A DNA stretch of 64,000 nt from Arthrobacter sp. AQ5-06 (lineage in GTDB: Bacteria; Actinomycetota; Actinomycetes; Actinomycetales; Micrococcaceae): positions 62,001 through 126,000 of the forward strand of contig NZ_QMKP01000008.1 of NCBI RefSeq assembly GCF_003287955.1, read 5' to 3'. Of the stretch, positions 52,046 through 54,534 are shown piece by piece. How positions within the stretch are numbered: position 1 is the stretch's first letter; every line of letters starts with the position of its first letter. The notes under the pieces were generated by a model. That model saw only the letters and a program-made list of their open reading frames with translations, made no database searches and had not been told where the DNA came from. Made by a program: the position numbers and the translations under genes.

Positions 52046-52597
52046 CTAGTGCGAGTCAGTTGAGAGCACGACGACGGCACCCACCGCGCCGTCGTCGTGC
52101 GTCAGTACCCCGCCGGCAGCGGTGAGGAGCCGCTGCGCGCCGATGTTGCCTGCCGTTGTGGACGCCACGACCTGGTGCAGTCCGGCGCGGCGGGCTTCCG
52201 CCAGTACTAGCCCCAACGCGGCGCCACCCACACCGCGGCTGCGATAGCTCCGGCCCAGCCAGATGCCTGTCTCCACCTCGCCGGATCCTAAGGTGGCCTC
52301 CCCGGGTGTGCGGGGGACTGACGATTGGGGGCTGGTTCGCTTCAGCCTGATCGAGCCCGCCGGGCTGCCGCAGCAGAGCACCGCCCAGCTCTTTTCCGAG
52401 GCCGGGCCGTCCAGGCCCGCGGCTGCAGACCGGTGGTAGGCGCGGAACCAGTCGATCCGTTCCGCGTTCCAGCCCGTCCCATTGCCAAGCGGCGGCGTGA
52501 CGTCATCGGCGGACGCATCCAGCTGTGCCAGCTCCAGCAGCCGCTCCAACATGGGTTCGTCGACGTCTGCCAGGCGGACCTCAGGGGAGCGGGACAT
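52046..52597 (-). CDS. GNAT-family N-acetyltransferase
   Basis: 183 residues. The acetyl-CoA site is GIWLGRSYRSRGVGGAALGLVLAEARRAGLHQV (RxxGxG-type), followed by STTAGNIGAQRLLTAAGG. The layout resembles RimJ/RimL-type enzymes. GGAG before ATG 52597; its start overlaps the end of yigZ by 17 bases, so the two form an operon. Confidence 0.82.
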   Translation of the reverse strand: MSRSPEVRLADVDEPMLERLLELAQLDASADDVTPPLGNGTGWNAERIDWFRAYHRSAAAGLDGPASEKSWAVLCCGSPAGSIRLKRTSPQSSVPRTPGEATLGSGEVETGIWLGRSYRSRGVGGAALGLVLAEARRAGLHQVVASTTAGNIGAQRLLTAAGGVLTHDDGAVGAVVVLSTDSH

Positions 52598-53297
52598 CGA
52601 TCCACTCCGTTCCGGCCGGCGTCAGCCCGGCCTTCCCGGCGGTGAGTGAGCGCACGCGTTCGGTGGCGGCAGCAAGTTCCTCAGCATCGTCAGGCACTGC
52701 CAGGCGAAGGATGGTGTCCCGTGCACCGTAGCTGGTTTCCGCCATCACAAACCCCGCCGCCCGCAGGTCGTGCTCGAGGCGTCCGGCCACGGTGTGCGGA
52801 ACGGACGCTTCGCAGATCCGGAGGCGGCTCCGCCGGACCAGCGGGGCCCGTTCCAGGGCGGCGGACACCGATTCCGAATAGGCGCGCACCAGTCCACCCG
52901 CGCCCAGCAGGATGCCGCCGAAGTAGCGGACGACGACGGCGCTGACGTCGCTGAGGTCCGTCACTCCCGGCGCGGTTTCCCGCTTGATGATGGCGTCAAG
53001 CATGGGGATGCCGGCGGTGCCGGAGGGCTCGCCGTCGTCGTTGGAGCGCTGGATGTCCCTGTCCGGCCCCAGGACGAAGCCGGAGCAGTGGTGGCGTGCA
53101 TCGTGGAACTCACGGCGCAGGGCGGACACCAGGTCCCGGGCGGTTTCCTCGCTGTCGGCGCGGCGCAGCACCGTGATGAACCTGGAGCGTTTGATCTCGA
53201 GCTCGTGCCGGAAGTCCGGCCCCGACGCGAGGGTGGTGTAGGTGGTGGTCCGGCTGTCTGCGGACTCCATGCCTGGGGTTTCCGCTGTCTGTGCCAC
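52581..53297 (-). CDS. YigZ/IMPACT-family protein
   Basis: 238 residues from GTG 53297. The UPF0029 core is HELEIKRSRFITVLRRADSEETARDLVSALRREFHDARHHCSGFVLG, then SNDDGEPSGTAGIPMLDAI and VVVRYFGGILLGAGGLVRAYSE, with the YigZ C-terminal domain after it. Thought to act near the ribosome. No ribosome binding site precedes the GTG; a TAGACT box lies six bases upstream. Confidence 0.9.
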   Translation of the reverse strand: MAQTAETPGMESADSRTTTYTTLASGPDFRHELEIKRSRFITVLRRADSEETARDLVSALRREFHDARHHCSGFVLGPDRDIQRSNDDGEPSGTAGIPMLDAIIKRETAPGVTDLSDVSAVVVRYFGGILLGAGGLVRAYSESVSAALERAPLVRRSRLRICEASVPHTVAGRLEHDLRAAGFVMAETSYGARDTILRLAVPDDAEELAAATERVRSLTAGKAGLTPAGTEWIDVPLP

Positions 53298-53303
53298 CCG
53301 TTC

Positions 53304-53313
53304 AGTCTAGGCT
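53304..53313. promoter_or_regulatory. Overlapping divergent -10 boxes for yigZ and coaE
   Basis: The ten bases AGTCTAGGCT hold TAGGCT on the plus strand (53308-53313), six bases before coaE GTG 53320, and TAGACT on the minus strand (53309-53304), six bases before yigZ GTG 53297. Both share the central TA. The gap between start codons is 22 bases, so both transcripts must be leaderless. Confidence 0.6.
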
Positions 53314-53319
53314 GGTGGG

Positions 53320-54534
53320 GTGCTGAAGATCGGTTTGACGGGCGGCATCGCCTCAGGGAAGTCAGTGGTTGCCTCACGCCTCGCCGAGCTCGGCGCCGTG
53401 CTGGTGGATGCGGACGCGCTGGCCCGGGACGTGGTTGAGTCGGGAACGCCGGGACTCGCCCGCGTGGTGGAAGCCTTTGGACCGGACATGCTCGACGCCG
53501 GCGGCCGGCTTGATCGCGCCAGGCTGGGCGCCGTGGTCTTTGGCAACCCCGCTCAGCGGGCCGTCCTCAACGGCATCATCCACCCCCTGGTCCGGGCGGC
53601 AGCGGCCGGCATCATTGCCTCAGCTCCGGACGGCGCGATAGTGGTCCAGGACATTCCGCTGCTGGTGGAGACGGGGCAGGGCAGCGGCTTCCATCTCGTC
53701 CTTGTTGTGGACGCACCCGATGACCTCAGGATCGAACGGATGCTCGAACATCGCAGCATGACGGCCGAGCATGCCCGGTCGCGTATGGCGGTCCAGGCCT
53801 CGCGTGAGCAGCGGCTGGCTGCTGCCGACGTGGTGCTGGACAACTCTGGATCACTCGAGGACGTGACGGCACAGGTGGACCGGCTGTGGACGGAGCGGCT
53901 GGTCCCGTTCGCGGAAAATATCGTTCGCGGTGTCAGGGCGGCCAGGACCGGCACCGCAGTATTGTCTGCGCCGCGGGAGGATTGGGCAGCCCAGGCCGCA
54001 CGGCTGGGATCCCGGATCGCGGCCGCAGCACCGGGTGACATCCTGGCGGTGGACCATGTTGGCTCCACGGCCGTGCCCGGCCTGGCAGCCAAGGACGTCA
54101 TAGACCTCCAGGTCACAGTGTCCGATCTCAACGCGGCCGACCGGATCGCACCGCTGCTGGCGGCAGCCGGCTTCCCGGGCGTGCCCGGGGCCGGCTTCGA
54201 CACCCCCAAACCGACGGATCCGGATCCGACGCAGTGGCAGAAGCGCTTCCACGCCAACGCGGACCCAGGCCGCGCCGTGAACGTGCACGTCCGGTCAGTC
54301 GGATCGTCCGGCTGGCGCTACGCGCTGCTCTTCCGCGACTGGCTCAGGAGCGATCCGGAGGCCGCCACCCTGTATGGGGACCATAAGCGCGCTTTGGCCG
54401 AACTGTTTGCGCGCACCAGCGGGACGCGGGCTTACGCGGAAGCGAAAGAGCCGTGGTTCACGGACCTAGCCTGGCCGCGCATGCAGGGCTGGGCCGCCCG
54501 CACGGGGTGGGTGCCGCCGTCGTACATCCCCTGA
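53320..54534 (+). CDS. coaE: Dephospho-CoA kinase fused to a GrpB/UPF0157 domain
   Basis: 404 residues from GTG 53320. Residues 1-200 are the kinase of the last step of CoA synthesis: P-loop LTGGIASGKSVVASRLAELG, DADALARDVVE, IHPLVRAAA and VQDIPLLVETG. Residues 220-404 form a GrpB-type nucleotidyltransferase-like domain (DILAVDHVGSTAVPGLAAKDVIDLQVTV, RAVNVHVRSVGSSGWRYALLFRDWLR). The fusion is common in actinobacteria; the role of the second domain is unproven. Confidence 0.92.
   Translation: MLKIGLTGGIASGKSVVASRLAELGAVLVDADALARDVVESGTPGLARVVEAFGPDMLDAGGRLDRARLGAVVFGNPAQRAVLNGIIHPLVRAAAAGIIASAPDGAIVVQDIPLLVETGQGSGFHLVLVVDAPDDLRIERMLEHRSMTAEHARSRMAVQASREQRLAAADVVLDNSGSLEDVTAQVDRLWTERLVPFAENIVRGVRAARTGTAVLSAPREDWAAQAARLGSRIAAAAPGDILAVDHVGSTAVPGLAAKDVIDLQVTVSDLNAADRIAPLLAAAGFPGVPGAGFDTPKPTDPDPTQWQKRFHANADPGRAVNVHVRSVGSSGWRYALLFRDWLRSDPEAATLYGDHKRALAELFARTSGTRAYAEAKEPWFTDLAWPRMQGWAARTGWVPPSYIP

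Follow-up and report, generated by a model that had tools for sequence, protein, structure and literature searches.

A probable 22-bp bidirectional promoter for two leaderless mRNAs between yigZ and coaE of Arthrobacter

Described bidirectional promoters and leaderless genes compared with the yigZ/coaE locus

Bidirectional promoters arising from the symmetry of the -10 element were reportedly described in a 2021 Nature Microbiology paper by Warman, Grainger and colleagues. In E. coli, distances of 18, 10 and 23 bp between the paired transcription start sites form the common classes of bidirectional promoters; those with low basal activity often display no measurable competition, and strong activation of one direction affects the other and lowers cell-to-cell noise (PMC12825309). 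Leaderless genes are known from a separate literature: in Mycobacterium tuberculosis (PMC3898074) and M. smegmatis (PMC6448022) TANNNT elements without a -35 element and leaderless GTG starts are normal, and about a quarter of the transcripts are leaderless. The nearest precedent that we found for a combination of the two is the divergent M. tuberculosis pair prpD/Rv1129c, in which both genes are leaderless, with mapped starts at 1254630 and 1254510; as these lie 120 bp apart, the two -10 elements are unshared (PMC3898074).

The locus considered here lies in a window of 64,000 nucleotides, the whole stretch of Arthrobacter sp. AQ5-06 DNA that was analysed, and comprises two divergent genes with GTG start codons. 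On the plus strand (53320..54534) coaE codes for a 404-aa protein in which dephospho-CoA kinase (CoaE) is fused to a GrpB domain, and on the minus strand (52581..53297) a yigZ/IMPACT-family gene codes for a 238-aa protein with UPF0029 and DUF1949 domains. The 22 nt between them (53298..53319, assigned to neither strand) are the putative common promoter. From 53295 to 53322 the plus strand reads, in succession, CAC, CCGTTC, AGTC, TA, GGCT, GGTGGG and GTG. The coaE -10 box TAGGCT (53308..53313, plus strand) is followed after 6 nt by the GTG at 53320, and the yigZ box TAGACT (53304..53309, minus strand, read from 53309 to 53304) is followed by the 6 nt GAACGG and the GTG at 53297. Common to both boxes is the TA step at 53308..53309, in which A-11 of each strand faces T-12 of the other; since sigma flips A-11 and T-7, the base flipped at the shared TA differs between the two directions. 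An earlier note on this DNA had claimed a 22-base gap, a TAGACT/TAGGCT pair with a common TA and a distance of six bases from each box to its GTG, all of which proved exact to the base. Counting 12 nt from the TA places the predicted +1 positions at 53320 (53308+12) and 53297 (53309-12), 23 bp apart and on the G of each GTG. A scan of 53100-53500 for a TTGACA-like hexamer 16-18 nt upstream found no -35 element.

The locus thus resembles the -10-symmetry promoters of E. coli in its opposed -10 elements with common bases, its predicted starts 23 bp apart, which is the sequence definition of the 23-bp class, and its polymerases, which would be mutually exclusive. Unlike those promoters, in whose description leaderless RNAs go unmentioned, its predicted starts coincide with start codons, and its boxes are of the GC-rich actinobacterial TANNNT type without a -35 element (PMC12825309). 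With the mycobacterial leaderless genes it shares a TANNNT box 6-7 nt before a GTG or ATG and the absence of both a -35 element and a Shine-Dalgarno site, but those genes have been described singly, whereas here two would depend on one overlapping -10 pair (PMC3898074, PMC6448022). With prpD/Rv1129c it has in common a divergent pair with both genes leaderless, as predicted here and as shown by mapped starts there, and it differs in that its -10 elements overlap. In the literature searched, to which most subscription journals are external, we found no description of a 22-bp fusion of both known kinds kept in seven genera.

The start codons leave little latitude for other arrangements. Each box contains an in-frame TAG 12 nt (four codons) before its own GTG, which makes an upstream start impossible for coaE and yigZ alike, and as the P-loop motif of coaE begins at codon 6, the GTG at 53320 is effectively its sole start. 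The yigZ gene of the window has an in-frame ATG at codon 10, which is missing in the close relatives with a shared site L095 and L096; in 34 of 64 loci the yigZ GTG has no alternative start in codons 2-20. The earlier note had argued that there is no room for a ribosome site, and this is borne out by the absence of a Shine-Dalgarno-like site from -16 to -5 before either gene in all 64 loci. Hence coaE and yigZ each combine the sequence marks of a leaderless gene, namely a TANNNT 6-7 nt before the start and neither a Shine-Dalgarno site nor an upstream in-frame start.

Based on this geometry, the constraint on the start codons, the absence of Shine-Dalgarno sites, the conservation described below and the enrichment of TANNNT-N6-RTG at gene starts, we consider it very likely that the 22 bp constitute a single minimal bidirectional promoter of the housekeeping sigma factor, of the 23-bp class, which makes two leaderless mRNAs. 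Two TANNNT -10 elements lacking -35 elements would overlap head to head through the TA, such that polymerase, according to the orientation in which it is bound, would initiate either on the first G of the coaE start codon (53320) or on that of the yigZ start codon (53297). Both mRNAs would be translated from the 5'-terminal GTG independently of a Shine-Dalgarno site. We infer from these features where the actual 5' ends lie, that the main sigma factor is used and that the two polymerases exclude each other, and the geometry suggests that coaE and yigZ may compete for one melting site, as the earlier note proposed. As both predicted start sites are start codons, the promoter would make up the entire yigZ/coaE intergenic region. 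The other end of the yigZ-family gene has 17 bases (52581-52597) in common with the beginning of a GNAT acetyltransferase ORF that lies downstream in the same orientation, which suggests that the two genes form a unit served by the yigZ promoter.

Conservation, separation and re-arrangement in the Micrococcaceae

We then examined 186 coaE loci of the family, a sample in which some genomes are present twice (e.g. L101/L237 and L102/L232, with the same sequences). With starts set blind to the boxes, the start-to-start gaps of the 139 loci with a divergent yigZ upstream of coaE were widely scattered but for one sharp peak, with 61 loci at exactly 22 nt and at most three at any other value; three of these 61 records look like duplicate genomes, leaving about 58. 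In each of the 61, a TANNNT stands at N6 before both starts. When the layout is defined by the boxes instead, the TA is shared in 67 loci (about 64 genomes), three of which have one 7-nt spacer. These include 50 of the 92 loci of the window's own genus (g1), and there are three named relatives outside that sample; in all, the layout is found in seven genera (g1, g13, g19, g24, g25, g26 and g28). The A...TA...T columns of the resulting profile are set by the selection rule, and so the gap test alone is independent of that rule. Among 56 non-redundant sites with 6-nt spacers on both sides the spacers differ and coaE starts with GTG or ATG. The box interiors differ by genus, as in L227, with CACCGGTCCATCCTATGCTGGGGCCATG (TAGGAT/TATGCT), and L231, with TATGCT/TAATCT. 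The pseudo-palindromic TCAGTYTAG is strongly conserved within g1, and between genera only A...TA...T is constant, with interior variants such as AGTCTAGTCT, AGCATAATCT and ATCCTATGCT. A strict coaE-anchored pattern, sought in 396 genomes of the order, matched in the genus only. The proposal in the earlier note of a bidirectional promoter with two leaderless starts therefore gains support at the sequence level, as spacing, boxes, TA and start codons are conserved together across seven genera.

The relatives compared are non-independent samples. A quick FastTree of the yigZ proteins required at least 11 changes of the shared state, on a tree with many weak branches and meeting long branches in which gain and loss are indistinguishable. 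We considered a mutual tuning of the box bases, since at the fourth position of its box coaE has T in 58 of 64 shared sites versus 10 of 62 separate ones, and set it aside as too few independent contrasts are left once the tree is allowed for.

In the remaining loci of the genus, about half, yigZ and coaE are further apart or non-adjacent, and hence the shared layout is not essential. A TANNNT nevertheless precedes the coaE start in all 92 loci of the genus, at 6 nt except for two with 7, and the coaE box is also present in loci without yigZ. After separation yigZ often keeps TAGACT 6-7 nt from an RTG (L008, L010, L011, L017, L025 and others). Between the separated genes of L003-L006, L009, L014, L016 and L045 we observed a palindrome-like stretch combining GAGCGCAGCGAGGTCAGGG with CCAGGGTTCCCTGG in either orientation, the exact pattern of which has one or two copies per genome. 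Two further types of overlap were encountered. In g27 (L251, L258) the starts are 18 bp apart, CATGCCTTAGAGTCTATTGAGTG, with boxes TAGAGT and TAGACT overlapping in the reverse manner; this pair apparently belongs to the 18-bp class of bidirectional promoters, with both starts leaderless. In L065 (G005) the gap CACCGGGCTAGTCTAGTGTGCGTG presents a third type, in which the coaE spacer is shortened and a TAGTCT box, overlapping and 7 nt away from the start, appears to compensate for this.

Genomic background and alternative explanations

In 264 kb of the genome, with 468 candidate starts, TANNNT-N6-RTG occurs 12 times at gene starts versus about once at other offsets, and in 200 kb of the relative G044 the corresponding figures are 7 and about 1; this enrichment indicates that leaderless genes are a normal minority in this genome. 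The full pattern CAYN6ANNNTANNNTN6RTG occurs at four places in the 4.14-Mb genome, and at only one of these, the yigZ/coaE site, is the start of a gene clear in both directions. One of the others was discounted as it lies within uvrB, and L173 is one-sided. The fourth, L172 (G000:C2:24972-24999; CATAGCTCGAGGGTAGGCTTCCGGAATG), lies between the start of an MFS transporter and the ORF of a LysR-type regulator and is a possible second double-leaderless case, the regulator start being uncertain. Across the family, GTG-pattern matches outside coaE/yigZ were dismissed as one-sided leaderless genes or chance. In L184 and L185 (g31) the GTG of an ADP-ribosylglycohydrolase-like gene lies six nt past a TANNNT box, likely a leaderless promoter acting in one direction, with a mirror box due to chance. 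A TANNNT six nt before the ATG of a coaE without an adjoining yigZ was observed in L100, L106, L107, L118, L120 and L143 (Streptomyces, Kitasatospora and Brevibacterium). As the box extends to Streptomyces and Brevibacterium, the leaderless state of coaE, as predicted from its upstream sequence, is probably old in the Actinomycetes.

Such one-sided sites with a chance mirror, found at other loci of the genome and the family (L173, L184-L199), lend some plausibility to a reading in which only one direction, probably coaE, is a true leaderless promoter, with yigZ read from within coaE by way of a leader antisense to it. The persistence of the coaE box in the absence of yigZ and the internal ATG of the window's yigZ would fit this reading. 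We nonetheless regard it as improbable, given that TANNNT stands at N6 before the yigZ start in every one of the 61 loci with a 22-nt gap, that yigZ genes separated from coaE retain TAGACT-N6/N7-RTG in the loci named above, and that yigZ is preceded by no Shine-Dalgarno site.

Less probable still is that the conserved symmetric 10-12 bp are the binding site of a regulator rather than two -10 elements. The strong conservation of a pseudo-palindrome within g1 is what might be expected of such a site, but its interior changes between genera, which hold only A...TA...T in common; furthermore, a regulator site would not need the preserved distances to both start codons, and upon separation of the genes each half remains with its own gene at the distance of a -10 element. 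As for two box-like hexamers overlapping by chance in a single genome, TANNNT is admittedly a weak motif, but with four pattern sites in 4.14 Mb and the layout kept in dozens of relatives across seven genera, coincidence is already refuted and we assign it next to no weight.

Implications of a probable minimal bidirectional leaderless promoter

With 22 bp accommodating nothing beyond a pair of overlapping -10 elements and their spacers, the predicted bidirectional promoter is about the smallest layout able to transcribe and translate two divergent genes, and it suggests that the rules of the 10-, 18- and 23-bp classes of E. coli extend to GC-rich, leaderless promoters lacking a -35 element. 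Since the start site and the start codon are both linked to the position of the -10 element in either direction, and dozens of variants are available, the locus offers a ready natural experiment: the shared, 18-bp-overlapped and pulled-apart versions could be used to test whether bidirectional promoters couple the expression of their genes and why such an arrangement is kept or broken. We tentatively raise the possibility, which we hold to be doubtful, that the Micrococcaceae maintain a single-switch pair, in which the same two leaderless genes are repeatedly placed on one overlapping -10 pair, spanning the 23-bp class in seven genera and apparently the 18-bp class in g27. If this is true, the orientation of the polymerase alone would either trade off CoA synthesis, via coaE, against the yigZ-family protein or hold the outputs of the two in a fixed ratio.
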